In this document: piece by piece, positions 1,401 through 28,327 of the stretch | How positions within the stretch are numbered: position 1 is the first letter of the stretch | Layout of the letters: each line of letters begins with the position of its first letter | Virus record (IMG/VR): IMGVR_UViG_3300009182_000250 | Span: 1-28,327 of that record | DNA: 28,327 nucleotides | From: a virus | Strand: one strand, 5' to 3' | Notes under the pieces: generated by a model | What the model was told of the DNA's origin: nothing | What the model saw: only the letters and a program-made list of their open reading frames with translations | The model's database searches: none | Position numbers and translations under genes: made by a program

Positions 1401-2492
1401 ATGGCATCAGAACTCGCTACTCGCACCGTAGGCCCCCAAGGTGCAAAAAAGTCTCTGCGTAAAGCATTTAAAAACAAACGTCCAATTTTCCTATGGGGTC
1501 CTCCCGGAATTGGTAAATCCGATATTATTAAACAACTGGGTACCGAACTTGATGCCCATGTAATTGATGTACGGCTAAGTCTTTGGGAACCTACTGATAT
1601 TAAAGGTATCCCCTACTTTGATTCTAACGACAATACTATGCGTTGGGCACCGCCTAACGAATTGCCAACACAAGAAATGGCGGCAAAACACAAACACATT
1701 ATTTTGTTCTTAGACGAAATGAATAGTGCGGCTCCTAGCGTACAAGCGGCTGCCTATCAGTTGGTTTTGAATCGCCGTGTAGGTACGTATCACTTGCCCG
1801 ACAACGTTATGTTGGTAGCGGCTGGTAATCGCGAAACAGATAAAGGCGTTACATTCCGTATGCCTGCTCCGTTGGCTAATCGTTTTGTTCACTTGGAAAT
1901 GACAGTGGACTGGGATGACTATTTTGGCTGGGCCGTAGACAACAAGATCCATCAGGATGTTGTGGGCTTTTTGACTTTCAGCAAGAAAGACTTGTATGAC
2001 TTTGATCCAAAGTCTAGCTCACGTGCGTTTGCTACTCCTCGCTCTTGGAGTTTTGTAAGCGAATTGCTTACAGACGACGACTGCGATAACGACACGTTAA
2101 CTGATTTAGTGTCAGGTTCTGTAGGCGAAGGTTTGGCAGTTAAGTTTATGGCACACCGTAAACACGCAAGCAAAATGCCTAATCCTACAGACATTTTGAG
2201 CGGTAAAATTAAAGAACTTAAAACTAAAGAAATTAGTGCTATGTATTCTTTGACTGTATCGTTGTGCTACGAACTTAAAGAGTCTTGCGAAAAGAAAGCC
2301 AAAAATTGGAATGATCAAGTTAACAACTTCTTCCAATTTATCATGGATAATTTTGAAACAGAATTGGTTATTATGGGTACTAAATTGGCATTGAGCACTT
2401 ACAAATTGCCATTAGATCCAGACGAGATCAAATGTTTCGATGCTTTCCACGCTAAGTTTGGTAAGTACATTAGCGCCGCTACAGAGAAGTAA
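1401..2492 (+). CDS. MoxR-family AAA+ ATPase
   Basis: A 363-residue AAA+ ATPase of the MoxR type, a family of chaperone-like ATPases that usually remodel or insert cofactors together with a VWA-domain partner. Walker A is GPPGIGKS (33-40), Walker B is ILFLDE (101-106), sensor 1 is the Asn of AAGN (143), and an arginine finger candidate is R161 in LANRF. The catalytic core fills residues 10-200, followed by a helical C-terminal part of about 160 residues without recognised motifs. It is cytoplasmic, with no signal peptide. It has its own sigma70-like promoter at 1316-1344 and an AGGAAAAG site just before the ATG. The next gene encodes a VWA protein, the expected partner, so the two probably act together. 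The substrate is unknown. Confidence 0.9.
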   Translation: MASELATRTVGPQGAKKSLRKAFKNKRPIFLWGPPGIGKSDIIKQLGTELDAHVIDVRLSLWEPTDIKGIPYFDSNDNTMRWAPPNELPTQEMAAKHKHIILFLDEMNSAAPSVQAAAYQLVLNRRVGTYHLPDNVMLVAAGNRETDKGVTFRMPAPLANRFVHLEMTVDWDDYFGWAVDNKIHQDVVGFLTFSKKDLYDFDPKSSSRAFATPRSWSFVSELLTDDDCDNDTLTDLVSGSVGEGLAVKFMAHRKHASKMPNPTDILSGKIKELKTKEISAMYSLTVSLCYELKESCEKKAKNWNDQVNNFFQFIMDNFETELVIMGTKLALSTYKLPLDPDEIKCFDAFHAKFGKYISAATEK

Positions 2493-2508
2493 TTTGGTGT
2501 AGCTGTAT

Positions 2509-2537
2509 TTGACACCTCCTTCGGGAGGTGTTATACT
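2509..2537 (+). promoter_or_regulatory. Sigma70-type promoter for the VWA gene
   Basis: -35 TTGACA (2509-2514) and -10 TATACT (2532-2537) have exactly 17 bp between them. The predicted start is near 2544, giving a short leader of about 23 nt that contains AGGAG (2557-2561), 5 nt before the ATG at 2567. The spacer is taken up by a perfect inverted repeat. This promoter would allow the VWA protein to be made independently of the upstream ATPase. Confidence 0.85.
2512..2531 (+). terminator. C(UUCG)G hairpin after the MoxR gene
   Basis: Arms ACACCTCC (2512-2519) and GGAGGTGT (2524-2531) pair perfectly over 8 bp around a TTCG loop closed by C-G, the unusually stable UUCG tetraloop form. A G-U and a U-A pair could extend the stem. 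It lies 19 nt after the MoxR stop codon. The downstream TTATACTATA is not a U-tract, so strong intrinsic termination is doubtful. A 3'-end-stabilising or pausing hairpin, as known for CUUCGG hairpins between T4 genes, fits as well. Confidence 0.75.
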
Positions 2538-2566
2538 ATATACATAGTAAACAATCAGGAGCAAAT

Positions 2567-3751
2567 ATGTCAAACGCAGATCCAATTATTGATAAAATTA
2601 TTGTAGCCCGTGTGGGTCTACTACTTCGCCATCCGTTTTTCGGCAATATGGCTACACGTTTAAAAATCCAAGAAGCATCAGATTGGGTTCCCACTGCCGC
2701 TACTGATGGACGCACAATCTATTTTAATCGTGAATTTTTTGCTCCACTTAGTGTTAAGCAAGTAGAGTTTGTTATTGCACACGAAATTTTACACAACGTA
2801 TTTGACCACATGGGTCGTCGTGAAGGTCGTAACGCACGTATTTTTAATATTGCCGCTGACTATTGTGTAAATGGACAATTAGTTCGTGACCGTATCGGTG
2901 AACACAATATTGAAGGTATTAAAATCTTCCATGACCCTAAATATTACGGTATGGGTGCAGAAGAAGTCTATGACAAAATCTTTGACGAAATGGACGAAGA
3001 TGAACTTAATGCACTTGGTCAATTGTTGGATGAACACATTGATTGGGGCGAAGACGGCAAGGGTAATCAGCCTAAGTATACCAAAGAAGAATTAAAACAG
3101 ATTCGTGACGAAATTCGTGAAGCTACTATTCAAGCGGCAAATGCCGCAGGTGCAGGTAATACTCCTGCAAGTGTACAACGAATGATTAAAGATTTTACAG
3201 AACCCAAAATGAATTGGCGTGAAATCTTACGCCAGCAAATTCAAAGTACTATTAAAAACGACTATTCGTTTATGCGTCCTAATCGTAAGGGCTGGCATAT
3301 GAACGCTATTTTGCCCGGTACACAATTTCAAGAAACTATTGATATTTGTGTAGGCATTGACATGTCAGGTAGTATCGGTGACGAGCAGGCTAAAGACTTT
3401 TTGTCAGAGATCAAAGGTATTATGCAAGAGTATCAAGACTTTAAAATTAAAGTGTGGTGCTTTGACACTAAAGTATACAACGAAGCTGATTTTGATGGAT
3501 ATAACATCGACGAGTTTGACTACTACGAGCCAATGGGCGGTGGCGGAACAGAGTTTGATGTTAACTGGGATTACATGAAAGAAAATGATATTCATCCTAA
3601 GAAGTTTATCATGTTTACAGACGGTTATCCTTGGGGTAGCTGGGGTGATGAAAACTACTGTGATACAGTGTTTATTATTCACGGCAATGATAAAATTGTT
3701 CCTCCATTCGGCGAGTATGCGTACTACGAAGAAGTTAAAGAAGTAGCATGA
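2567..3751 (+). CDS. VWA-domain protein with N-terminal HExxH metallopeptidase-like domain
   Basis: A 394-residue protein of the two-part type (DUF2201-like): an N-terminal zinc-metallopeptidase-like domain and a C-terminal VWA-like domain. The zinc motif HEILH is at 72-76. The MIDAS metal site is visible as DMSGS (265-269), a Thr in GGGGTEF (about T328) and the Asp of FTDG (D352). The middle, about 130-220, is acidic and helical. I chose the ATG at 2567, 5 nt after AGGAG. An upstream in-frame GTG at 2528 lies within the promoter hairpin and before the predicted transcript start. It lies just after the MoxR ATPase, a classic MoxR/VWA pairing, and overlaps the next gene by ATGA. Whether it cleaves protein or acts as a metal-dependent adaptor cannot be told. 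Confidence 0.88.
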   Translation: MSNADPIIDKIIVARVGLLLRHPFFGNMATRLKIQEASDWVPTAATDGRTIYFNREFFAPLSVKQVEFVIAHEILHNVFDHMGRREGRNARIFNIAADYCVNGQLVRDRIGEHNIEGIKIFHDPKYYGMGAEEVYDKIFDEMDEDELNALGQLLDEHIDWGEDGKGNQPKYTKEELKQIRDEIREATIQAANAAGAGNTPASVQRMIKDFTEPKMNWREILRQQIQSTIKNDYSFMRPNRKGWHMNAILPGTQFQETIDICVGIDMSGSIGDEQAKDFLSEIKGIMQEYQDFKIKVWCFDTKVYNEADFDGYNIDEFDYYEPMGGGGTEFDVNWDYMKENDIHPKKFIMFTDGYPWGSWGDENYCDTVFIIHGNDKIVPPFGEYAYYEEVKEVA

Positions 3752-5233: not shown

Positions 5234-5914
5234 ATGAATGTTCAGTTACTTAGCTACAGTCAACCCACACCAGAATTTGCAAATTTGGGCATCAAAGATG
5301 CGCAGGAACTCATTGCGTATTGCGCCCGTGTGTCCAATCCAAGTAATCAACTCAACACAGACACATCCGAAAAACTCATCCGATACCTCATCAAACACCA
5401 GCACTGGTCACCACTCGAAATGGTCTCAGCCTGCATCGAAATTACTACAACCCGAGATATTGCCCGTCAAATCTTGCGACACAGAAGTTTTAGTTTCCAA
5501 GAGTTCAGTCAGCGATATGCTGACCCTACTAAAGACTTGTCGTTTGTACGTAGAGATGCACGAAAGCAAGATACAAAGAACAGACAAAACTCAATTGAAT
5601 TAGACATTCAAAATGATGATGCTGATCGGTTCCTTGCTTATCAGTGGGAACAGATGCAAAATAAAGTTATTGAAACAGCCCAAAATGCTTATACATGGGC
5701 TATTGAAAAAGGCATCGCTAAAGAACAAGCCCGAGCTGTACTACCCGAAGGACTTACAGAAAGCCGTTTATATATGAATGGCACATTACGTAGCTGGATT
5801 CATTTTATTGAATTACGTAGTGCCAATGGCACACAGAAAGAGCATCAAGAAGTTGCAATTGCCTGTGCTCGAGTGATAGCTGAAATCTTTCCTTTAACAA
5901 ACGATCTTATTTAA
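5234..5914 (+). CDS. thyX: Flavin-dependent thymidylate synthase
   Basis: A 226-residue ThyX, the FAD- and folate-dependent enzyme that methylates dUMP to dTMP using NADPH, supplying thymidine for phage DNA synthesis. The signature RHRxxSxxxxSxRY is intact at 82-95. The second conserved block, with NGTLRSWIHFIELRSANGTQ (182-201), contributes dUMP and FAD binding residues. Length is normal for the family (about 200-250). The start is fixed by the family N-terminus (AYCARVSNPS at 28-37) and an AGAAG site 9 nt upstream. It is the last + strand gene of this block, and its final 8 nt overlap the end of the convergent glycosyltransferase-like gene. It is typical of T4-like aquatic phages, where ThyX often replaces the ThyA type. 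Confidence 0.95.
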   Translation: MNVQLLSYSQPTPEFANLGIKDAQELIAYCARVSNPSNQLNTDTSEKLIRYLIKHQHWSPLEMVSACIEITTTRDIARQILRHRSFSFQEFSQRYADPTKDLSFVRRDARKQDTKNRQNSIELDIQNDDADRFLAYQWEQMQNKVIETAQNAYTWAIEKGIAKEQARAVLPEGLTESRLYMNGTLRSWIHFIELRSANGTQKEHQEVAIACARVIAEIFPLTNDLI

Positions 5915-16571: not shown

Positions 16572-17189
16572 TTAAACTGACACTAGGCCGGTTAAACTTT
16601 GAAGCCTTACTGTATAATCAATTTGTATAAGTCTATTAAGGCTTTTTTGTACAGGGTGGAAAATTACGTGTGTTAATAATAACGGATTTCCAGTAGCACT
16701 GTAACTTTTTAATCCAAGCTCGTCAAATACAAACGTACTGTTATTATTATTTGTATTATCAAATGCGCTTTGTCCTGCATCATTTCCATCGCCATAATCT
16801 AATAAACAAGTCACAAATATGTCACTATAATTTGTGCCGGTGACGTGTCTAACTTCCATGTAATTTCTTGTAGGATCTGCATTGCTACTAGAATTTTGAT
16901 TGACTATTTTATGATATGTTTCATTGTATAAACCAGCATTACTACCTGTACTATTCGGAGTAAAATATGTAATAATTCCAGTTGGATCGATTGCGGTTCC
17001 GCCGTTACCAAACGACATTTGGCTGATAAATCCGCCATCGGTATTGTTGGATAAACTGTTGGCTAGGGCTGTACTAATGTTTTCGTAATGAATTGCGTTA
17101 CGTTTATTAATATAGACTTCCTTACTTTCAGGATCCCATATTTTAATATGTCCTTCAATGTGGATTCCGGTTAGATCTTTACTCTGCAT
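16572..17189 (-). CDS. Virion-type protein of 205 aa
   Basis: A 205-residue protein. It starts with GIHIEGHIKIWDPESKEVYI (8-27) and RNAIHYENISTALANSLSNN (30-49), then FGNGGTAIDPTGIITYF (60-76), followed by an Asn-rich stretch. The C-terminal part holds FVFDELGLKSYS and SLNRLIQIDYTVRLQSLTG. I associate this pattern with a structural protein of T4-like aquatic phages, function unassigned. No enzyme motif is seen. A GATAAATA late promoter (17210-17217) sits upstream with a leader of only about 15 nt, and the ribosome site is weak (AAAGAGAG). It starts a three-gene late transcript with the 734- and 556-aa fibres. A baseplate or fibre-attachment role is plausible but unproven. Confidence 0.78.
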   Translation of the reverse strand: MQSKDLTGIHIEGHIKIWDPESKEVYINKRNAIHYENISTALANSLSNNTDGGFISQMSFGNGGTAIDPTGIITYFTPNSTGSNAGLYNETYHKIVNQNSSSNADPTRNYMEVRHVTGTNYSDIFVTCLLDYGDGNDAGQSAFDNTNNNNSTFVFDELGLKSYSATGNPLLLTHVIFHPVQKSLNRLIQIDYTVRLQSLTGLVSV

Positions 17190-17238: not shown

Positions 17239-18825
17239 TTATCGGGCACCTGTTGTTTTCCGAGGATAAACTGGGCCTGTAGACCTAAATCCGTAATTTT
17301 GTTTAGGGAATGTCGATCCGGTATGGAAGTATTTGTAAATTTGATCTACCTTTGGACTGCCTAACCCTGTGGCAGCATCCCAGCCTGCGGTTGTAGTATA
17401 ACCAGTAGTATATCCATTTCTATTATCACCGCTTGTAGTATCAGTGAACATTGAAGAATTACTATACCAAATAGACATATCAAACGGTACTCTAGTGCCT
17501 AATAGTGCAGTTAATCTTGCCCAAGTGCCTGCTAAAAACGGTGCGCTGGCGCTGGTACCGCCCCAGGTCTGCAAGGAGTTGTTTACATAAAATGTCCAGC
17601 CGGTAGACGGATTTGCAGGAGCACTGATATCAGGAACACCTCGGCGAGGTAAAGCAGTTGGAGAACCTGTTGAGCTGGCTGTTTTAGTAGTCGAGGTTAA
17701 ACCAGTTTGCCAACTGGGCAAGGGCACTGAACTGCTAATACCGCCGCCACTTCCGCTCCATGCAACTTCGCTACTGATGTTATTACTGCCATCTAGTACT
17801 GTAGTCGTGCCACCGGCTGATACCATATATTGACTGCAACAAGTTTGCGCCATACTTAAATTGTTTGCACCGCTATCGCCTGAACTAACAAAAACTGTAA
17901 TGCCTTTGGTCACGCAGGCTTGCAATGCTGAATCAAATACTGTGCCATCGCCAATTCCCCAGCTTATATCAAGTACGCAAGGATTGTTTACAGTATCGTT
18001 TGCACACGCATTGATATTGTCAATGATGTTCTGTGTTCCACCATTTGGTGCTGTATAGTATGCTATTTTTGCTCGAGGCGCGGCGCCTCCTGAACAATAA
18101 ATGTCCAGCATACTTTCTGCATCGCTGGTTGAACTTACTGTTGCTCCATTTACATTTATATTTGTAATTGTTGGAGCAGTTAGCCCGATACGAGAAAAGC
18201 TATTTGTAACATCCGTGGCGTTATATCCTGTAACATAACCACTATAAGTTAATTCAAAAATTCCAATACACACACCATATCCGTCACCGGTCGGTGATTT
18301 ATAAGCTGTACTCATTTGTATGGGTGTTACTGCTATTGCAGGATTAGCAATCGTAGGATCAGCGCCAGGATAATCTAGAGGATCATATTTTGTTGCATGT
18401 TTTACAGCAATAAAACTTTCGTCAAATCCAGGAACACTTTCAATTATACCTATCATTGCTTGAGGAATAGTCGGAGCAACATTTGGCATCATGTAAGTTC
18501 TACCACCATCCGTCACATCTTGTAATGTAATGTTAAATGCACTATTAAAAGCACCCACTGACCCTGTAACTTTGACTACACTTTGTCCGTGATGCGATTC
18601 ATGAATAGAAAAATTATTTGCACGGGCCCAGTCTATAGCTTTTTGCAAATTTTCATCTGTCGCACCAAATTGATAAACAAACGAACTGTGACCTAAAATT
18701 GGTTCTTGGCCTTCAAGCACAGCATCTGCATATTCTTTTAAAGTCATTCCATTTTCGTGAGTATCTCTTACAAGATACAGACTAATCATTATCTGGTCGT
18801 TGACATTTTTATTGACTGTGGTCAT
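17239..18825 (-). CDS. S53 (sedolisin / pro-kumamolisin) serine-carboxyl peptidase
   Basis: A 528-residue peptidase with the full S53 layout. A pro-domain (about 25-140) has family hallmarks: FGATDENLQKAIDWARANNF (53-72), VVKVTGSVGAFNSAFN and GGRTYMMP. The catalytic domain (about 165-498) has the Glu/Asp pair E237/D241 in ESMLDIY, the oxyanion Asp D317 in SSGDSG, and the nucleophile S425 in GGTSASAP. The calcium site is visible as FTD (D462) and GWDAATGLGSP (D483). All catalytic residues are present, so activity is expected after removal of the pro-domain. No signal peptide is seen. Seven cysteines and a basic C-terminal tail of about 28 residues follow the family core. It sits between fibre genes and is probably transcribed with them. 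Likely roles are virion protein maturation or attack on host surface protein. Confidence 0.9.
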   Translation of the reverse strand: MTTVNKNVNDQIMISLYLVRDTHENGMTLKEYADAVLEGQEPILGHSSFVYQFGATDENLQKAIDWARANNFSIHESHHGQSVVKVTGSVGAFNSAFNITLQDVTDGGRTYMMPNVAPTIPQAMIGIIESVPGFDESFIAVKHATKYDPLDYPGADPTIANPAIAVTPIQMSTAYKSPTGDGYGVCIGIFELTYSGYVTGYNATDVTNSFSRIGLTAPTITNINVNGATVSSTSDAESMLDIYCSGGAAPRAKIAYYTAPNGGTQNIIDNINACANDTVNNPCVLDISWGIGDGTVFDSALQACVTKGITVFVSSGDSGANNLSMAQTCCSQYMVSAGGTTTVLDGSNNISSEVAWSGSGGGISSSVPLPSWQTGLTSTTKTASSTGSPTALPRRGVPDISAPANPSTGWTFYVNNSLQTWGGTSASAPFLAGTWARLTALLGTRVPFDMSIWYSNSSMFTDTTSGDNRNGYTTGYTTTAGWDAATGLGSPKVDQIYKYFHTGSTFPKQNYGFRSTGPVYPRKTTGAR

Positions 18826-18826
18826 A

Positions 18827-21490
18827 TTATGCTTCTAGTTTTAAGTACGTGATTGTAACTGTTATTGCAGATGCACCGGCACTGTTATTATTATAAATCT
18901 TCAAATACATGTTTGTCCCCGGAGTGCCGTCTGCATTGAATCCCATTACAGCTGGAGTAAAATAAGTTGTATTTGATACTGCACCAGTAGTAATTATCTC
19001 TGCTATTACACCGCTTCCCGGTGTGGGATCAGTAGTTATTGCTCGTGAACTATCTGCACTTTGCGCACTTGAGCTTGTATAAATTGTAATCCAGGCGCCT
19101 GCACTTGCTTGTATACTGTACAATGCATAACCTTTGGCTGCTACTACCGTTGCCGTGGCGCTTGTTTGATATGCAATGCTAGCTGTTGTCGTTGAAACTG
19201 TTGTTCGACTAGACAAGCCTGCACCGCTAGATGTTAATTGTCCGCTACCATTAATAGATATAGTCGTGCCATCTATTTTAACAGCACCAAGTTGTGTTGT
19301 AGATGCTGCCGAAACACTGATAACTCCACTGGTAATTGTTATTGTGCTGTTGTCAACTTTGACGCCGCCCAATTGTGTGTCGCTTGCAGTGGCTAAACCA
19401 ATAGTGCCTGTACTATTTGTAATGCCGCTGGTTGCCACAGCTGGAATTTTTACACCTCCTGTAACACTGGTGGTAGCCGTTGGTAAACTATACTGGGCGG
19501 CTGGCGTGAAAAAGAATGTATTACCGCTGATACTCAGTGCACCGCCACCGCTGGCAGAATTAGTAGTTACTGTATAAGTTGGTACTACAGGAATAACTGG
19601 AGGCGTGAATGAAAATACACTTCCATTTAAACTTAACGCTCCGTTTCCGCTTGGTGTGTTTGACGACACTGTGTATGTTGGCACTAAAGCCGGAGTGAAC
19701 GAAAATGTGTTTCCACTTAAACTTAAACTTCCGTTACCGCTAGCTGTATTAGATGTTACTGTATAAGTTGGTACTGTAGGTATTAACGGAGGAGTATATG
19801 TGAATGTATAACCGCTTAATCCTAATGCACCAGAACCACTTGCACTATTTGTTTGTACATTATAAGTTGGTATGCTTGCTGGAGTAAACAAGAATGTAGT
19901 TCCATTTAAACTTAAACTACCGCCGCCATTAGCTGTTGGACTTGTTGACACACTATAACTTGGAACGCTGGCCGGTGTAAAAGTAAATACTCCACCACTG
20001 TAACTTAAAGAGCCACCACCACTAGCAGTATTGGTAAGCACACTTAAACTAGTAGATTGTAAAGGTGTATACCCTAATGCTGTAGTAACTTGATTACCAG
20101 TAATTCCTGTTAAGTATGTTGATAGATTTGGCGGTGTAAACGAAAACACTCCATTCAAATAACTTAATGCACCAGTTCCGCTGGCTGCATTTGTTGTTAT
20201 GCTTAAACTATTGATATTAAGATATGTTGATAAATTTGGAGGGGTATATGTGAACACACCGCTAGCATAACTGATAGCTCCAGATCCGTTGGCGGCCGCA
20301 TTTGCTCCAACACTTAGACTACTCAACTGTATTGGAGTAAATCCTAACGCTGAAGTTATTTGACCCGTTGTTAATGTTCCGCTATAAATTCCAGTTATAG
20401 TACCAGCAGTTCCACTTACATTACCAGTTACGTTACCAGTTACGTTACCAGTTACGTTACCAGTTAAATTTCCAGTGAATGTGCTGGCAACAATAGGAAT
20501 ATTACTTGTAAAACTAGTATTAGCGTGAGTATATAAAAAAGTAGGATTTGGCGTTGGGCCGTACACTTGTAATCCGCTACCATCACTTAATGCACTACTT
20601 GTACTGCCGTTACTAACAATAATTGTTTTATTAGCTACACTTAAAGTGCTAGTACTGGTACTTGTTGTTGTACCAGTTACTGTTAGGTTTCCAGTAATAA
20701 CAGTATTTCCAGTAACGTTCAAACCTGATAGTGTTCCAACGGTTTGCAAACTAGAATTAATAACTGTTGTAGGTAGTGTTGTTAAAGAACTAGCAATAGT
20801 AGTAGCGGGAACTGTGATATTTGCAGTTCCATCAAAACTAACACCATTAATAGTACGAGCAGTTTGCAAAGCTGTTGCTGTTCCAGCATTGCCTGTTATT
20901 GTGGTAGTTGCGGCTGGAGGTACAAATGTAAATAAACCTGTAGAACTATTATAAGATATGCCGCCAACGCCAGATGGTGTAGTATTAATAACACTTAAAC
21001 TAGTTAAGGAAATCAAAGACGATACATTTGGTGGAGTGTAGGTAAAAACACTTCCGCTTATACTTAAACTACCTGTGCCAGCAGGACTAGCCGTATTAAT
21101 AGTATATGTAGGCACAACTGGTGGTGTGTAAGTGAATTGTCCGCCGGAATAACTCAACGCTCCGTTACCGCTGGCAATACTTGTTCTAACTGATAAACTT
21201 TCAGCAGTTAAATAGATTCCTAAATTTGGAGTGTTTATTAATTTTGAATAGTTTAAACTAGTAATCCAAGCAGGATCTGAATAGGCAGCCGTAGTGACTA
21301 CTCCGTTAGTTGCTTGGAATGGTTGCCAGCTAACAAGGTTACCGTCTGTTGTTAAATATTTTCCGCTATTTCCAATCAGCGATGGCAAGGATAGCGAATA
21401 TAGTTCAGTAAAATTACTGTTGATTTTAGCGGCGCCAGATTTTAAACTATCTGCGGCGCCTGCTTTTGTATTAATTATTAGTTGCGACAT
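18827..21490 (-). CDS. Repeat-containing tail fibre (887 aa)
   Basis: An 887-residue fibre. The N-terminus AAKINSNFTELYSL (20-33) is the usual start of phage fibre proteins. Residues 104-192 and 399-664 hold at least eleven copies of a unit of the form (S/T)xxGxG(A/S)LSxxGxxFxFTPP, most spaced 30-36 residues apart. Between them is a beta-rich part with NVTGNTVITGNLTVTGTT and a GNVT tetrapeptide repeat (about 340-359). After the repeats come QLGGVKVDNSTITI and QLGAVKIDGTTISI segments. The C-terminal 110 residues form a compact domain containing ALYSIQASAGAWITIYTSSS. AAAGGA lies about 11 nt before the ATG. Probably a long trimeric adhesin whose shaft length depends on repeat number. Confidence 0.87.
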   Translation of the reverse strand: MSQLIINTKAGAADSLKSGAAKINSNFTELYSLSLPSLIGNSGKYLTTDGNLVSWQPFQATNGVVTTAAYSDPAWITSLNYSKLINTPNLGIYLTAESLSVRTSIASGNGALSYSGGQFTYTPPVVPTYTINTASPAGTGSLSISGSVFTYTPPNVSSLISLTSLSVINTTPSGVGGISYNSSTGLFTFVPPAATTTITGNAGTATALQTARTINGVSFDGTANITVPATTIASSLTTLPTTVINSSLQTVGTLSGLNVTGNTVITGNLTVTGTTTSTSTSTLSVANKTIIVSNGSTSSALSDGSGLQVYGPTPNPTFLYTHANTSFTSNIPIVASTFTGNLTGNVTGNVTGNVTGNVSGTAGTITGIYSGTLTTGQITSALGFTPIQLSSLSVGANAAANGSGAISYASGVFTYTPPNLSTYLNINSLSITTNAASGTGALSYLNGVFSFTPPNLSTYLTGITGNQVTTALGYTPLQSTSLSVLTNTASGGGSLSYSGGVFTFTPASVPSYSVSTSPTANGGGSLSLNGTTFLFTPASIPTYNVQTNSASGSGALGLSGYTFTYTPPLIPTVPTYTVTSNTASGNGSLSLSGNTFSFTPALVPTYTVSSNTPSGNGALSLNGSVFSFTPPVIPVVPTYTVTTNSASGGGALSISGNTFFFTPAAQYSLPTATTSVTGGVKIPAVATSGITNSTGTIGLATASDTQLGGVKVDNSTITITSGVISVSAASTTQLGAVKIDGTTISINGSGQLTSSGAGLSSRTTVSTTTASIAYQTSATATVVAAKGYALYSIQASAGAWITIYTSSSAQSADSSRAITTDPTPGSGVIAEIITTGAVSNTTYFTPAVMGFNADGTPGTNMYLKIYNNNSAGASAITVTITYLKLEA
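19499..20296 (-). repeat. Coding repeat block: about eight FTPP units in the fibre
   Basis: This covers residues 399-664 of the 887-aa fibre, with eight imperfect copies of a unit ending FTPP/FTPA, at about 399, 435, 488, 519, 549, 582, 612 and 645. Three further copies lie at 20915-21181 (residues 104-192). DNA copies are diverged, so the repeat is clearest in protein. Copy number may vary between related phages. Confidence 0.8.
20421..20468 (-). repeat. 12-bp tandem repeat, four copies (GNVT codons)
   Basis: Four copies of the 12-bp unit TTACCAGTTACG (as read on the + strand) at 20421, 20433, 20445 and 20457. The first three are identical and the last diverges in its final two bases. In the fibre frame each encodes a Gly-Asn-Val/Leu-Thr step. 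The unit is a multiple of 3, so slippage would change fibre length without a frameshift. Confidence 0.9.
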
Positions 21491-21508: not shown

Positions 21509-24500
21509 TTACCACGTATCTGTACTATCATCGAATCCTGTACTACTATTATCAAAAGTTCCCGTAAATGTTGTACTTGTTGTCAATACAACTTTATCAT
21601 GATACCAAATTCCAGGTGTTGCTTTTAAGAAATTAGCAATAGCATTATCATCATATTGAATATTTAACGAACTATCCCATCTTGTGCCTTTTCGTCTTAC
21701 TACAGTAATCTGAGTGCCAGCAGGTATTAAATTTGTTAATCTTAAACTTGGACTAACACCGTCTACTGCAAATTCTGCATCCAGCTTAACATCTCCGGCA
21801 GGGCTATATGGAGATATTGTTTCATTATGTACTTTATAAGGTTGTTTTTTCAATCTTAAATTTCCAACAAAGAATTGCCAATTGGCTTTATCATTTAGGA
21901 AGTTTGTTGAGCTAGTGTGCGCCGAAATGCATCTATAGGTATAACTTGCCACTTTAACGATTACACCAACTGTATAACTTGTTTTTTCAATCCACTCTAT
22001 TGCGTCATTATACCCTGCAATGAAAACTTCAAGCTCGTCGCATTGTTCAAATCCCACAGGAACTTTGGTATCGTATAGTTCCCAATAAACTTTGTTTGTG
22101 GGAAGAATTATATTCTTCTTATCAAACACATAGGTTTTTATATTTACATAATACAAATTGTTATAAATTACCACATCGTTGATTGTGTATCCATTTGCCC
22201 CATTATGGTTGTCTTTGAGTGTGAATCCCAATTTTGTAAACCACTGTTTGATACCAGATTTTGTCGGTACAAACGGTAAAGGCACAATATTAGTACCAGT
22301 GCTAATCACTGTTGTTACTAATGAAGATTCCGAATACGGCAGTGTTTCACTTGGCCCAATATCTTGCACTGGAGTTCCAATAGGATGGATTCTTGGAGTG
22401 CCAGTTCCGTGTGTGCCTCGTCGTAACTGGCTTAATGTATTACCTTCAATTTGATAAAACTCAATACGTTCTCCGTAAATTTCAATCACACCCGGTTTGT
22501 TTAGTGTAGTGTTTGGTAAATCAAAATTGCTAGCATCAATTAACTGAATAGCAATATCGTTATAACGTAAATCTGTTGCTAATTTTGTTTGTTTATTTTT
22601 ACTTAATCTCTTAAAATGTGTTCTGTTAAGCATATCTTTAAATTGCATATACGAAATTCCAGGAACTAGAACGTTATTGTTAAACGTCATCAAAGAGTAC
22701 ACATCATTACGAGCTGGTGTAATTTCTAGTATTATAGATTTTTTATTGTCTGACAACTTATAGTCAACGGACGGAGTTAACAACACATTATTCTTCATTA
22801 CCCATACATAAGCATCACTAAGTACTGTTCTATCAACCGGTAGAATTCCTGCTCCAAGACCAGTATAGGTAAAATACGCTACTGTATCTTGTGTATAAGA
22901 TATGTTAGTGGTTATATTAAATGCGGTTCTTTCAATATCTAAAATATCGTGATTATAAAAACTCATTACTTCAATAGTGTTTGAAGGAGTGTAGACAGTA
23001 TTAAATAAAATTTGCTGAGTATCTGGCAAATATGTATAGCCGTTAGTTTGTATAATACTAATAGCTAACGTCTTACCTTTGTATATATTATAATTTTGTT
23101 TAGTTATATTTACAGTTATGCCGCCTAAGTCGATAACATAGTCTGTTCCTAAATTTAATTTTTTTCCAGATACATATACTAGAATATTACTGATTATGAT
23201 ACTGTAAGGAAGTGCTCTTGCCTTATCAATAGTGTAGCTAAGATTATTATTTTCAATAGTAAAATACTGATTAGTTGGATTTGGTAAAATCGTATTATCT
23301 ACTCGTACAATTATATTAGATTCAGCCGGCAAAGTATTTCCCACTGGGTATGATAAATTATATGTATTTTTAACACCGTCGGCAACAATTGTTTCAGTCT
23401 TGGCTATACTAAATGTTTGTTGAGTTCCACTAACAATTACATAATTGATTACAGAATCAACTAATGGAGCAAGTCCAAATCTAATTCCTGTACGGTTTGC
23501 CGAATCATATGTTGAATCTGTTTTGAATAATTCAACTGATGCCGCAACTCCGTTTACGTATACAAGACCTGTTTCGTATGTTAGCCAAGGTGCTTTGGTT
23601 AAAAATTCAGTAGTTGATCCATCACCCACAAAAGAATCAATGTCTATTATATTAGAACCGTTAAATCCAAAACTGAATATACTAATAATATTTCCAGCAT
23701 TTGGAGCAAAAGTAAAATTAACTAATTTATTCTTATAATCAACAACGTAATCTGTAGTATATGAACTAATTACATTATTATTTTTAACAATAATTGCTCT
23801 TTCATTATTAAATGTCTGTGTAATTGCAAATGATTTAGTCTTACCGTCGGCAAAATACTTGTCTACTTTAATATTTGCACTTCCAGAATTAGGTTGGTCA
23901 TACACTTTAATAGCTAGTGCATCAACTATTTGACCGGGAACTACTTCTTCTGGGGCAGGACTAGTAGTTGGGCTAATTAGATCATCACCGTCCACGATAA
24001 TCTCATCCGGCGATATACCCGTTGCTGTACTATATACCATATTGCCGCCAGATAACGCAGTGTCATAGTCTTGCTCAAGAGGTTTAATTGATCCGTCACT
24101 GGTGCTTTGTCTTATAATAAATTGATCACCGTCGTACACATCAAATGTGTCAGGTATGACAAAAGTATTGGTATTATTATCACCTACTGGAGAAACCATT
24201 ACAGCTGACTGATTTGTTTGATACGGATTATCAGGGTGCGCTGGATCAAAATCAACTCCATAGTATGGATCGTCTAATCTTATAGAATCTAATACACCTG
24301 TTATTATAATTCTAGTTCCAATTGCTGCCGGTGATGGCAATATAGCATTGTAATTATAAAAAACTACACTGATCTTACGTGAGAAAGTTATAGTAGTATT
24401 GTAAGGAACAATCCTGTAAATTATTTGATTCAGTTTTACTATTTTATTAACTGTGTCCACTCCAACCACAACAGTATCATTGCCAAAACAGGATGAAACT

Positions 24501-27500
24501 GTTGTGGATACTAGATCCCCTACCAATACACCGTCAGCATTGTCAACGTATAAATTAAAAGAACCGGGAATATTAAAAGTAAATGATAACACTCCAACTG
24601 GGCGCACATTTGGTGGAGAAGTTAGCAACACAGTACTGTTGACTGAATTAACACTAATCACTTTTTGCAATGGCACAAGAGTTTTTGGATCGACCACAAA
24701 CCCTGTGCCAAACACTGACATTCCTGGACGTATTCCAACGGTGCTGGTAACTCTTATTGTGGTAGAAGCAATATAAGTAGGTGGAGCAACGTAAGAAGTT
24801 TGTATAGTTACCGAGACTGCATCATATTCTGCGCTTGTTTCCACAAAAGTATCCCGTAAAGAGAAAGGATAGTTTAAATTTACTCCATCAGAAACGCCCA
24901 CATCTACATTTTTTTGTATGTAGTAGACATTGAGTTGTGTGCCAGTTGAAGGAGTATACGGCAATGTAAACGAATGAGTATTGGCTCTCACTGTTACAAT
25001 GTAATCATTAAATGTTGGATCAGCACTGTCCCACTTGTCGCTGTAATAAGGCAATGTGCCCCAGCCAGTTGCTACATCAAAACTTAGTCCATCTATAATG
25101 ACTCCACCATAATCTATCCCCGTCATCAGCTGAGCAAGATCCGATCCAACTGTGTTCTTACTTGATTGATAGTAATATTGTATTCTGTCGGCAGCATTTA
25201 ACAAAGATTCGTCTTTATTGTAATTAACAATGACGACTGAACCAGTCGCTGGTGCTGTCAAGAATGTTATTAAACCAGAATATTGTGTGGTGTTATTCTT
25301 TTTGGAGGTTATTATTGTTAACTTGTATAAATCTCGTAGCACTACTACACCGTCGACAGTTACAGAACTATTTCCAATTTTAATGTCTGGTGCCCATTTT
25401 AATTGGAATTGTACAATGCCAGATCGTCCGGCAAATGTTTGAGTGACTGAAAGTTGTGTTACATAATAAGAATAAGTAGTTCTATCAAATTTAATTTTAA
25501 TCAAGTTAGATCTCACTACGCCTTTTCCAATAACTGCGGCGGCCGTGGCCTGCGTTCCGCCTACCGACAAACCACCCGATATTGTAATTGTTGGAGCCGA
25601 TAAGTAGCCGGCTCCCGGAGTTAGTAATGTAATTCTGTTAACTATTCCATTTGCAAAAAATGCTCTTGCTGTAGCTCCGCTACCAGAATCGCTAGTGATT
25701 GATACTACTGGTTCTGAAATATACCCAGAGCCTCCGTCGACTATATTAATACTAGTTATAGTAAATCCTACATTTTGTAGCCAATTTTTCCAAGGATAAA
25801 CTTGTATGTTAGCATCGTCTACTATCATACTGCCATTCTTAACATAAGGATTAATTACTGTATTTGAATTATCTTCAAAAATTGGCGGTAAATCAAAGTC
25901 TGATATTAAGGTGTTTTCTTGATCTATAGCAGTATGAGAACTAATATACTCTCTAATTGTTGTTCTGTAAGGAACAACTTCTGAAATGTAGTCTTGGAAA
26001 TTACTTAAATTATCAGGACGATATGTCACTGGTTGGTCTAATAATCCAACATTATGCGTTGATTTAATAAAACTTGTTTTAAAAATCCAATCAAGATACA
26101 ACTGTTCGCTCAGTGCATACCTTATTGTAGTAAAAAATAAATTTAAATAATCTTGTTTTAAATTCCCAATTAGAATATCATCTTTTAAAGTTTCTAATAT
26201 AATACGTAATTCAATATTTGGGCTATTATCATATACAACATTATCGTATATTGATCCGTCATATCCTAGTGGTGTATTAATACTTTGATATAAAGAAGAT
26301 TTCAATTGTATCGTACCCTCTTGTAACCCTACAACACGATACGATTGTGTCCAATCTGAAGATTTTGAGTTAGCATATTTTTCTAGTAAACTCCAGCCAC
26401 CAGCATTTGTGTTTCTAATTTTAACAATTTGTGTTAATTCTGTAGTTATTGTGTTTAATCCGTAATAGTTGTCCACAGAATAATCAATAGGAGAAAATTT
26501 ATTAAAACCCGGAGCATACCAATCAGCATATTCCCAGAAATTTCTTACATCATAGCTTTGTGTTTGTATTCTAGACCAGATTTTTGTAGAAGGTTCATAT
26601 GAATAGATGCTCCAAAATCCTTCTGCTTCACTATCACTTTCAATTAATACAGAAAAATTTCTTATAGATGCAGTGGTATTAACAGTATAACCTTCGCCTG
26701 AATTTATAATAGTAACACCTGTAATTTGTCCTGCGGCATTAATTACTGATTGAACTTTTGCGCCTATTCCAGTTCCCACTATAGTAATGTAAGGAGCAAA
26801 CAAATAGCCTCGTCCTGCATTAATTATTGGAATATCAATAATTTTTCCGTTTGAAATAGTTGGTTCGCCTAATATTGGTTTACTAAATGCTCCTGTGTTA
26901 ATTAAAGGAATACTAACTTCTGTTGTTTTAACTAAGTCGTAAAGTCCTGTATTCTTACTAGGCTGTTTATCGTAAGATTTTAAACGTGAAATATTTCTAG
27001 TTTTTACTATTTGATTAAGAGCTAATGTTGAATTTACACGGTCTGCTAATTCTTTAAGTGCTTCAAATCGGTTTACAAACATGCTTTGTCTTGGTCTGTT
27101 TTGAATACCGTATTTTAATTTTGGAGGCAGGGCAGGATCTGGGACTAGTCTTCCGAATAAATCATTCCCGCATAAACTATCGGCCCATTTTTGTTCTATT
27201 ATTGTTGGCAATATAGTGTTGGCATCATTACTAATTAATTTATACTGACTATGAATATTCTGGTCAAGTTTATCTATAGTCCAATACTCTACAGACAATA
27301 CCACGTTTACATCAATTAGATCATTTGCAACGTTTACTAAGCTAAAACTGTTTGCGCCAGTTAACGCCAAATAAGAATAGTTATATCCTCTTGGATTTGA
27401 AATAAGCAATGAAACATCCAACGCTGACAAATATCTACCAGAAACATTAGGTATTATTTTTTTATTTTTGACCCAAAAATAATAGGTATATTTGTTGGTT

Positions 27501-28327
27501 TGTGCAATGGTATCAAACTTAGTTACCTTACTATAAACTGCATCTCCGTATAAACTAGTTCCACTGATATTCGCGGCAAGTCCAGCTGTAGTGTCTGCTC
27601 GTTTATCCCACACCGATGGTAATATTGTAGATTCTACCCATTCGTAAATATCAATGCTGGCGCCGGTTGCTAGTGTATTCCAGTTAGTATTTCTGTATAC
27701 AACATCGTTATCATAAGAATCAATAAATTTAGCTGTAGATAAATTCCACCATAGCATGCCTACTTGAGATTTAGTCCAAGATTGTTGGCTATCTTGGACT
27801 ACAGTATACACACCAGTAGACTCTGAATATATTGCAGGATCATAGAATGTTTTGAATTTTATTTCTTCTTCGGCAGCGCCGGCAATTTTTCCCTGCGATA
27901 CATCGATAACATCTAAGTATTTGATTAAAGTTCCAGTTGCTTTATTGTATAAAAACGCCTTTTTAATTTTCTTTGGATCTGGTTTTTCTATCTCGTAGTG
28001 TGCTACATTCCAATTTAACGCATTTAATTTTTTATAGTAGTCGTAAATTTTTCCTGATTTAAATATGGAATCTAGACTAAATGGTGCTCCTACTAAAATA
28101 TGATTTGCACCCACAGCAAATCCTAGCCCGAAGCCGTCAAATTCTTCATTAGTAGTTTCTAAAGTGTCGCTATAAACCCATTTTGTCAAGTAACGGTCAT
28201 AGATATCAATTCTTCCACTGTTTGTATGTGTTGCTGTAAACACTGTAGATCGTTTATCAAAGGTAGTTAATTTTGCATCAAATTTAGTATTTTGACTAGT
28301 ATCTTCGTCTTGGCTATAAATTACTAG
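21509..28327 (-). CDS. Giant virion structural protein, partial (runs off right edge)
   Basis: At least 2,272 residues. Translation is open to the right edge, so the true start lies outside; the GTG at 28243 is internal. The visible N-terminal part has a beta-propeller-like (FG-GAP-type) stretch, DGFGLGFAVGANHILVGAP. Four glycine-tyrosine motifs (NAGRGYLFAPY, NSGEGYTV, GGSGYISEPV, GAGYLSAPTI) occur in two pairs near 26690-26850 and 25560-25750. Many DGV/VNG-type beta segments follow. Near 22390-22460 is GERIEFYQIEGNTLSQLRRG, a motif I associate with large structural proteins of T4-like aquatic phages. It is first in this visible late block. Likely a tail or baseplate-associated protein, possibly host-binding. 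No enzyme motif is recognised. Confidence 0.82.
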   Translation of the reverse strand, partial: LVIYSQDEDTSQNTKFDAKLTTFDKRSTVFTATHTNSGRIDIYDRYLTKWVYSDTLETTNEEFDGFGLGFAVGANHILVGAPFSLDSIFKSGKIYDYYKKLNALNWNVAHYEIEKPDPKKIKKAFLYNKATGTLIKYLDVIDVSQGKIAGAAEEEIKFKTFYDPAIYSESTGVYTVVQDSQQSWTKSQVGMLWWNLSTAKFIDSYDNDVVYRNTNWNTLATGASIDIYEWVESTILPSVWDKRADTTAGLAANISGTSLYGDAVYSKVTKFDTIAQTNKYTYYFWVKNKKIIPNVSGRYLSALDVSLLISNPRGYNYSYLALTGANSFSLVNVANDLIDVNVVLSVEYWTIDKLDQNIHSQYKLISNDANTILPTIIEQKWADSLCGNDLFGRLVPDPALPPKLKYGIQNRPRQSMFVNRFEALKELADRVNSTLALNQIVKTRNISRLKSYDKQPSKNTGLYDLVKTTEVSIPLINTGAFSKPILGEPTISNGKIIDIPIINAGRGYLFAPYITIVGTGIGAKVQSVINAAGQITGVTIINSGEGYTVNTTASIRNFSVLIESDSEAEGFWSIYSYEPSTKIWSRIQTQSYDVRNFWEYADWYAPGFNKFSPIDYSVDNYYGLNTITTELTQIVKIRNTNAGGWSLLEKYANSKSSDWTQSYRVVGLQEGTIQLKSSLYQSINTPLGYDGSIYDNVVYDNSPNIELRIILETLKDDILIGNLKQDYLNLFFTTIRYALSEQLYLDWIFKTSFIKSTHNVGLLDQPVTYRPDNLSNFQDYISEVVPYRTTIREYISSHTAIDQENTLISDFDLPPIFEDNSNTVINPYVKNGSMIVDDANIQVYPWKNWLQNVGFTITSINIVDGGSGYISEPVVSITSDSGSGATARAFFANGIVNRITLLTPGAGYLSAPTITISGGLSVGGTQATAAAVIGKGVVRSNLIKIKFDRTTYSYYVTQLSVTQTFAGRSGIVQFQLKWAPDIKIGNSSVTVDGVVVLRDLYKLTIITSKKNNTTQYSGLITFLTAPATGSVVIVNYNKDESLLNAADRIQYYYQSSKNTVGSDLAQLMTGIDYGGVIIDGLSFDVATGWGTLPYYSDKWDSADPTFNDYIVTVRANTHSFTLPYTPSTGTQLNVYYIQKNVDVGVSDGVNLNYPFSLRDTFVETSAEYDAVSVTIQTSYVAPPTYIASTTIRVTSTVGIRPGMSVFGTGFVVDPKTLVPLQKVISVNSVNSTVLLTSPPNVRPVGVLSFTFNIPGSFNLYVDNADGVLVGDLVSTTVSSCFGNDTVVVGVDTVNKIVKLNQIIYRIVPYNTTITFSRKISVVFYNYNAILPSPAAIGTRIIITGVLDSIRLDDPYYGVDFDPAHPDNPYQTNQSAVMVSPVGDNNTNTFVIPDTFDVYDGDQFIIRQSTSDGSIKPLEQDYDTALSGGNMVYSTATGISPDEIIVDGDDLISPTTSPAPEEVVPGQIVDALAIKVYDQPNSGSANIKVDKYFADGKTKSFAITQTFNNERAIIVKNNNVISSYTTDYVVDYKNKLVNFTFAPNAGNIISIFSFGFNGSNIIDIDSFVGDGSTTEFLTKAPWLTYETGLVYVNGVAASVELFKTDSTYDSANRTGIRFGLAPLVDSVINYVIVSGTQQTFSIAKTETIVADGVKNTYNLSYPVGNTLPAESNIIVRVDNTILPNPTNQYFTIENNNLSYTIDKARALPYSIIISNILVYVSGKKLNLGTDYVIDLGGITVNITKQNYNIYKGKTLAISIIQTNGYTYLPDTQQILFNTVYTPSNTIEVMSFYNHDILDIERTAFNITTNISYTQDTVAYFTYTGLGAGILPVDRTVLSDAYVWVMKNNVLLTPSVDYKLSDNKKSIILEITPARNDVYSLMTFNNNVLVPGISYMQFKDMLNRTHFKRLSKNKQTKLATDLRYNDIAIQLIDASNFDLPNTTLNKPGVIEIYGERIEFYQIEGNTLSQLRRGTHGTGTPRIHPIGTPVQDIGPSETLPYSESSLVTTVISTGTNIVPLPFVPTKSGIKQWFTKLGFTLKDNHNGANGYTINDVVIYNNLYYVNIKTYVFDKKNIILPTNKVYWELYDTKVPVGFEQCDELEVFIAGYNDAIEWIEKTSYTVGVIVKVASYTYRCISAHTSSTNFLNDKANWQFFVGNLRLKKQPYKVHNETISPYSPAGDVKLDAEFAVDGVSPSLRLTNLIPAGTQITVVRRKGTRWDSSLNIQYDDNAIANFLKATPGIWYHDKVVLTTSTTFTGTFDNSSTGFDDSTDTW

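Follow-up and report, generated by a model that had tools for sequence, protein, structure and literature searches.

Peptidases of family S53 are typically extracellular enzymes, most often secretion products of bacteria and fungi, and those characterised so far work at acid pH. For a partner at the end of a phage fibre, a fair model in terms of position is gp38, which in T2-type phages sits on the tip of gp37, according to the relevant passage of PMC12892980, and which in T4 acts as a chaperone and is then released (passages of PMC12892980 and PMC3004832). Regarding proteases, the relevant section of PMC3037559 reports an S8 peptidase gene in P-HM1 and P-HM2 that was absent from other sequenced cyanophages, with syntenic peptidase genes in both. 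No report of a fibre-linked S53 or S8 protease was found in the open-access literature, covered by titles and the beginnings of abstracts among the best matches of longer lists, with subscription journals and preprints largely outside. Nor was a paper found that describes the fibre link of the proteases occupying the corresponding slot in Synechococcus phages, though some annotations name a protease. Here, an S53 gene located directly behind a fibre gene was analysed. Comparisons of sequence suggest that it probably encodes a protease borne on the fibre, docked by a C-terminal tag and perhaps cutting a protein of the host surface.

The window, meaning the whole stretch of DNA analysed, is one virus record of 28,327 bases. 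Its virion cluster lies on the minus strand in the order giant protein, fibre, S53, a 205-aa protein, then collar and fibre-like genes, with the following features.

17239..18825, minus strand: S53 (kumamolisin-type) peptidase gene, 528 aa, ATG start (ORF list, Pfam, phmmer)
18376..18825, minus strand: pro-kumamolisin activation domain, residues ~1-150 (Pfam match 26-135)
18337..18396, minus strand: variable linker between prodomain and catalytic domain, residues 144-163 (alignment), likely the region of activation cleavage
17335..18336, minus strand: S53 catalytic domain, residues 164-497 (phmmer, alignment)
18115-18117, 18103-18105, 17875-17877 and 17551-17553, minus strand: catalytic codons E237, D241, D317 and S425, respectively
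17440-17442 and 17377-17379, minus strand: codons of the calcium aspartates D462 and D483, respectively
17242..17334, minus strand: basic C-terminal tail of S53, residues 498-528
17260..17286, minus strand: conserved tag R-S-T-G-P-V-Y-P-R, S53 residues 514-522, the proposed docking signal
18827..21490, minus strand: fibre gene, 887 aa, with its stop codon 1 nt ahead of the ATG of S53 (TAA-T-ATG)
18830..19156, minus strand: fibre C-terminal domain that accompanies the protease, residues 779-887, predicted beta-sandwich (pLDDT 93.5)
16572..17189, minus strand: 205-aa virion-cluster gene, whose homologue lies directly 3' of the fibre gene where the protease slot is empty
21509..28327, minus strand: giant protein gene, open at the window end

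A complete S53 peptidase had been claimed by the first-pass annotation, which gave no strand, and an open reading frame is present at exactly 17239..18825 on the minus strand. The four catalytic residues stand at the positions it had assigned to them. The prodomain it had named is recognised by the Pfam model Pro-kuma_activ (PF09286, E 4.3e-11, residues 26-135), and the HMM search it had proposed also returned a match to Peptidase_S8 (E 1.1e-11, residues 244-442). With phmmer, the window protein matches pro-kumamolisin (1t1e) at E 8.9e-50 over residues 44-492. An alignment of viral S53 was established with 61 rows, of which 3 are truncated and in which the window protein is present twice. The E, D and D of the catalytic set are kept in 60/60 rows with a letter and the S in 58/58, so that the S53 call is not a matter of chance. 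The presumed calcium site is likewise supported: D462 and D483 align and are kept across the viral rows, in 55/57 and 56/57 rows with a letter, respectively. The suggested lack of a signal peptide agrees with the absence of an evident hydrophobic N-terminal stretch, judged on Kyte-Doolittle values alone, the highest mean of any 15-mer starting within the first 60 residues being 0.48. The proposed structure prediction gave a divided answer: the best PDB match of the AlphaFold2 model was indeed pro-kumamolisin (E 1.6e-27, TM 0.48), but the model, built from 16 sequences, was poor, with a mean pLDDT of 56. By catalytic residues, whole-domain homology, prodomain and calcium aspartates, as read from the sequence, the window protein is an S53 peptidase. 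Shorter viral S53 of ~408-425 aa (L052, L073, L080, L092, L119, L164-L170 and L178-L181) were also observed, with slot and tag kept; a Pfam prodomain match was absent in both that were scanned (L080 and L092).

By tblastn (E 1e-5), no relative of the window S53 was found among 50,697 phage records. In IMG/VR, 31 S53 loci at 47-100% identity were found, and 71 loci with a profile, on contigs of up to 354,680 bases. The Pfam S8 model also matches S53, and the type was therefore assigned by the better of two custom profiles; a first assignment of L068 as S53 was dropped after Pfam. Among the best 80 of 276 cellular S53, the best by E-value are 32-34% identical and belong to Ralstonia and its kin. 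In a quick tree of 85% clusters, without bootstrap, 41 viral clusters form one clade apart from 30 cellular ones (SH-aLRT 99), and because of this grouping S53 is read from the sequences as a gene long at home in phages. Recent capture from a host was rejected for this sample, the viral S53 being one clade beside proteobacterial and other bacterial S53.

Regarding the phage itself, two longer IMG/VR contigs (L002 and L003) share 97-100% protein identity with the window over the compared stretch. The 205-aa protein has relatives in 60 phage records. Among the 15 best listed are Phosso, Atu_ph07, Munch, RaK2 and K64-1, all of them jumbo phages, so that the window most likely represents part of the genome of such a jumbo myovirus, to judge from the sequence of this neighbour. 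The T4 major capsid family gp23 was present in 8 of 14 large contigs that carry the system with either S53 or S8. Photosynthesis genes, used as a test for a cyanobacterial host, gave a match in 1 of 14 large records, which are possibly fragments; this record (L112) is an S8 carrier close to S-CAM1. Judged by sample numbers, boreal and bog lakes are presumably the source of the S53 loci and the sea that of the S-RSM4-like S8 loci, and by eye the two lists have no sample number in common. The split between lake and sea is not strict, because S53 loci also occur in the samples of three S8 loci (L049, L059 and L089; samples 3300013285, 3300034198 and 3300010885). Elsewhere in the window, the plus strand holds a gene for a MoxR-like AAA ATPase and, next after it, a DUF2201 gene (putative metallopeptidase and VWA-like domain) at 1401..3751, and a ThyX-type thymidylate synthase (Thy1, E 3.8e-46) at 5234..5914. 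In one lineage (L005 and L006), an extra gene of 587 aa lies between S53 and the 205-aa gene.

The first-pass annotation had further placed the gene 1 nt from a fibre gene and close to other virion genes. The gap between the genes at 17239..18825 and 18827..21490 is 1 nt, and the gene is part of a virion cluster and linked to the fibre gene. The same layout was found in the search for this gene beside fibre genes elsewhere, as the annotation had recommended: a fibre ORF lies upstream in all 30 first-scan loci with an upstream ORF, and ends exactly 1 nt before the S53 ATG in 30/30 (the count omits L028, whose contig starts inside the gene). These fibres range from 216 aa, a truncated case, to 1071 aa, and their genomic neighbours occur in several arrangements, in every one of which the last ~105-110 fibre residues match one domain. 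Overall, this domain is encoded directly upstream in 61 of the 71 S53 loci. Since such searches started from S53, the pairing might have been an artefact of sampling; this was ruled out by a scan of IMG/VR started from the fibre domain. Of at least 579 relatives, it covered the 80 that most resemble the domain of the window phage. The next gene is S8 in 42, S53 in 26 and neither in 12, a clan-SB protease thus being the next gene in 68/80, with a gap of 1 nt in 48 of these 68; the query alignment came mostly from protease-linked fibres, and the protease share may differ farther out. Among the 12 protease-free loci several are near-copies, and for one (L110) only 590 bases remain before the contig end, which falls in a gene resembling the S-CAM1 subtilase. 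In a further scan (best 80 of at least 584 relatives), five loci have another copy of the domain with no protease beside it. Of 20 partner representatives initially classed as non-S53 or uncertain, Pfam recognised 19 as subtilases, the exception being L104 without a match, and it found a subtilase in 4 of 7 partners from isolate phages; in three further downstream ORFs (truncated L084, the 184-aa ORF of L098 and the first partner in L033) a Pfam match was absent. The AlphaFold2 model of the fibre domain is a confident beta-sandwich (pLDDT 93.5). Foldseek gave one match below E 0.001, the HFTV1 turret (E 8.7e-4, TM 0.42/0.45), and VIA-align a best Z of 7.9 (XepA), a score at the level of common beta-sandwiches; kinship to either is not claimed.

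Among phage records, the fibre domain alone was found in 46, by name 41 of Synechococcus phages, 3 of cyanophages and 2 of marine viruses, and 16 of the 46 were inspected. An S8 protease is the next gene at 1 nt in S-H9-1 (behind its second domain copy), S-MbCM7, S-CAM1, S-RSM4, S-CREM1, S-WAM2 and ACG-2014j/e. In S-H38 the S8 gene overlaps the domain-bearing gene by 1 nt, and in AG-345-P14, a record without annotation, S8 also lies behind the domain. The existing annotations of the slot proteases read “subtilisin-like serine protease”, “peptidase” or “hypothetical”, and in S-CAM1 “putative proximal tail fiber protein”. In 113 distinct complete viral S8, the active-site His, Asn and Ser are invariant and the Asp is kept in 110. 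Other occupants also exist. In Sf-CH1b and S-BM3 the slot protein follows at 1 nt with neither tag nor Pfam match, both of which are likewise absent from the partner of the first domain copy of S-H9-1 and from the 184-aa ORF of L098; further proteins lie behind the domain in S-SCSM1 (3 nt), ACG-2014i (5 nt), PSS2 (23 nt; 365 aa) and S-CRES1 (30 nt). Because proteins lacking both a tag and a Pfam match occur in some slots, the fibre domain is not only a protease dock. Behind the domain, a cyanophage family ending in ..ARTT was also observed (L036:4353-6650, L040:4326-6152, L033:930-3233 and L277:14709-16679), with no Pfam match and no tag in the three scanned (L036, L040 and L033).

The basic C-terminal tail, which the first-pass annotation had thought might attach the enzyme to the particle, is real. 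Residues 498-528 hold 6 K/R and no D/E, and within them lies a motif common to the S8 proteases of the same slot, which makes a role in attachment plausible from sequence. A typical S53 end reads FPKQNYGFRPxSGxxYPRKTTGAR or similar, and none of the other ORFs in the first 32 loci is matched by patterns derived from it. The tag has the common form R-x-x-[ST]-G-x-x-[YFW]-P-R; its strict form was defined as [RK]..G..[YFW]PR and its core as [YFW]PR. In the S8 partners the motif is terminal, or lies behind the protease domain when further domains follow. In 13 aligned S8 partners, at 29-66% identity to the first, only the G, P and R of the tag are invariant beyond the catalytic domain. Counted as loci rather than distinct proteins, the 59 complete S53 behind a fibre domain comprise 50 with the strict tag, 7 with only [YFW]PR near the end and 2 with none (L155 and L188). 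By comparison, in 7 complete S53 no fibre domain was seen upstream, and none of these has the strict tag; two (L182 and L183, with the same ORF span and end) have a bare FPR end, and one (L176) starts 34 bases into its contig, the upstream gene lying outside. Fisher tests gave p 1.5e-5 for the strict tag (50/59 vs 0/7), related and identical loci being treated as independent, and p 4.7e-5 for the core (57/59 vs 2/7), only a guide as kinship is ignored. These tests leave out the truncated L163, L186 and L185 as well as L028 and L158, both tagged, whose contigs begin inside the gene. Among 81 distinct complete S8, 77 have the fibre domain upstream, and 77/77 of these carry [YFW]PR behind the catalytic region, 45 of them in the strict form; the 4 without the domain show no strict tag and one bare match (S-TIM54, L360), with no recognised catalytic Ser motif ahead of it. 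Within the final 150 residues, for frames of at least 300 aa, [YFW]PR occurs in 137/167 viral S53/S8 vs 6/488 other frames of the same loci, and in 4.8% of shuffled protease ends. It follows the catalytic Ser in 1/74 cellular S53, and shared ancestry of S8 and S53 therefore does not explain the tag.

The simplest reading of these sequences is that the tag is a binding signal for the fibre domain, though it may mediate something other than docking. Covariation between tag and domain was also calculated as mean mutual information, without control for relatedness. For S8, the 14 tag positions gave z of -1.2 to 1.4 against catalytic columns of like entropy, and one position (G) ranked first by corrected score when set against 375 control columns (percentile 1.00). 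For S53, z ranged from -1.1 to 3.9 and exceeded 2 at three positions outside the P-R core. Moreover, three viral S53 without fibre domain and tag (L171, L175 and L176) share another C-terminal stretch, ..KTxxxTWSNVxAIWTK.., and the fibres upstream of L171 and L175 end in GSVGDIWYQTF; such ends are possibly a second docking solution. The window itself carries the fibre domain (residues 779-887) upstream and the [YFW]-P-R tag (514-522) in the protease, and by sequence it is a member of the proposed class of docked clan-SB modules.

The process that these features suggest may be described as follows. Fibre and S53 would be synthesised in a coupled manner through the stop-restart layout (TAA-T-ATG). 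The proenzyme, without an evident export signal, would fold in the cytoplasm, with the prodomain keeping it off. Its C-terminal tag would bind the C-terminal domain of the fibre, and in the finished particle the enzyme would presumably be located at the fibre end, like gp38 on gp37 of T2-type phages. At the host surface, loss of the prodomain would activate the enzyme, which might then cut a surface protein, so that a receptor is exposed, a protein coat is opened or the phage is freed from a false receptor. Many host surfaces are not acidic, which counts against an S53 of acid pH acting there. The evidence, all of it based on sequence, consists of the intact S53 and S8 enzymes, their pairing with one fibre domain, the common tag, the swapping of types and the empty slots. 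Because one fibre end pairs with two protease types that share a tag, it is suggested that such phages have protein-cutting enzymes mounted on their tails. For the wider proposal, that T4-superfamily and jumbo phages, many cyanophages among them, possess a general and interchangeable docking system for fibre proteases (domain, tag, S53 or S8) which digests host surface proteins, the chances appear about even.

The swaps and empty slots bear directly on the strongest alternative, which is nevertheless unlikely, namely that the protease binds the fibre domain by its tag inside the infected cell, trims the fibre or a neighbouring virion protein and leaves. The 1-nt layout would give such a maturase local, coupled synthesis, and the prodomain would permit timed activation. 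However, fibres with the same domain lack an adjoining protease in 12/80 loci (several near-copies and the cut-off L110 included). In L362, L363 and L364, the giant protein is followed by a fibre of 288 aa with the domain, 57 nt, the 205-aa gene and the collar fibre, which is the gene order of the window minus S53. On the contig of L364 (G016, a fragment of 47.5 kb), no S53 match was found, which also counts against trimming as the function. On the contigs of L362 and L363 (G003 and G001), one S53 is located elsewhere, beside a second fibre with its own domain copy, and could serve the unpartnered fibre in trans; from these cases it follows that the protease is optional at the site and can sit elsewhere together with the domain. 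Furthermore, S53 and S8 are exchanged for one another even though different specificities are expected of them, and proteins without a protease match can occupy the slot. In a tree of 161 distinct fibre domains (98 S8, 45 S53 and 18 neither; 124 columns, 161 rows, 68/158 inner branches open), parsimony gave 7 changes between S53 and S8, whereas, counted on the starred branches only, the S53 label must have been gained or lost 4 times and the S8 label 2 times, with each label set against every other row. A maturase is weakened by domain-bearing fibres without a neighbouring protease and by the interchange of two protease types, and with the tag considered as well, the sequences favour an enzyme that stays on the fibre. 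Of the roles listed by the first-pass annotation, maturing the fibre or giant structural protein is thus the less favoured, and cutting host surface protein at entry would suit a fibre-borne enzyme.

It is quite improbable that the protein is a protease-derived chaperone or structural cap, which folds or caps the fibre end while proteolysis is incidental. Its position and coupling do resemble those of genes 37 and 38, as described in passages of PMC3004832 and PMC12892980, and a conserved tag suits a structural partner. Nevertheless, the catalytic residues do not vary in S53 and hardly vary in S8, which is needless for a mere cap, and the fibre domain occurs without any such partner. Least probable of all is a free enzyme released at lysis to digest host debris or act in the surroundings, its fibre linkage being operon convenience: the usual extracellular nature of S53 and the lack of direct virion detection of S53 would suit it, but a signal peptide is not evident, and both the pairing with one fibre domain across neighbourhoods and the tag that tracks this domain are left unexplained.

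For a fibre-borne enzyme, presence in the virion is expected, and published particle data touch on the slot in several phages. In P-SS2, ORF087, which bears the fibre domain, and its downstream neighbour ORF088, without a Pfam match here, were detected in purified particles with averages of 11 and 17.5 peptides, respectively (passage of PMC2784084). In S-SCSM1, three proteins carry a virion annotation, namely gp231, which bears the domain, gp232 next to it, which is not S8, and gp228, which contains S8; the section of PMC9602691 on mass spectrometry reports 45 proteins and leaves these three unnamed. For S-CREM1, 14 virion proteins are reported in a passage of PMC9964418 that is silent on whether the peptidase is among them. 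A slot protease was not found in the parts of published virion peptide lists checked, and proteomics of an S53-carrying phage was likewise not found.

If docking is true, the enzyme would represent a new class among virion enzymes. Enzymes of the particle that digest proteins of the host surface would then be the protein counterpart of glycan depolymerases, and many phages, among them Synechococcus phages that are culturable in the laboratory, would present proteases on their tails. Tag and domain would constitute a portable tag-and-dock pair, testable at once and usable as a tool. The slot genes of cyanophages annotated as “subtilisin-like” and “hypothetical” would gain a role, and the question would arise of which host surface proteins are cut by phages at entry.

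Compared with known systems, the locus shares with kumamolisin and pro-kumamolisin (S53, 1t1e) the prodomain, the catalytic domain, the Ser-Glu-Asp set, the oxyanion Asp and the calcium aspartates. Unlike kumamolisin, the phage S53 form a clade separate from the tested cellular S53, show no evident signal peptide, are encoded by a gene coupled to a fibre gene and carry a C-terminal tag, the core of which is absent after the catalytic Ser in 73/74 cellular S53. The subtilisin-like proteases of Synechococcus phages (S-WAM2, S-H9-1, S-RSM4, S-CREM1 and S-H38) have the same slot, fibre domain, tag and clan SB, but use the S8 machinery of Asp-His-Ser, whereas the window has S53. In S-SCSM1 gp228, an S8 domain is likewise found in a protein annotated as a virion protein, which differs as a fusion of 1411 aa without a tag and with no fibre domain found upstream; the domain lies in the N-terminal part of this protein (L277:3577-7812), whose annotation also reads baseplate wedge. 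Tailspike and fibre depolymerases are likewise virion enzymes that degrade host surface polymers, though they cut glycans, usually as domains of the spike, whereas the window has a separate protease gene with a docking tag, docking here being proposed from the genes. The gp37-gp38 pair of T2-type phages (PP01 and S16) is also a distal fibre gene with a partner gene, with gp38 mounted on the tip, and the window S53 is encoded directly downstream of its fibre gene in the same manner, at a 1-nt gap. gp38 is a poly-glycine adhesin rather than an enzyme, and its contact with gp37 in T2 is made through the N-terminus, whereas the window protein is an enzyme with a C-terminal tag (relevant passages of PMC12892980). 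Identity of S53 with an adhesin of this kind, a poly-glycine sandwich with hypervariable loops, was ruled out, as residues 44-492 of the 528 are homologous to pro-kumamolisin and the prodomain match spans 26-135. By analogy, the window S53 may nonetheless sit on its fibre like gp38. The enzyme of the window is a new member of S53, and the system extends the accessory proteins of fibre tips.
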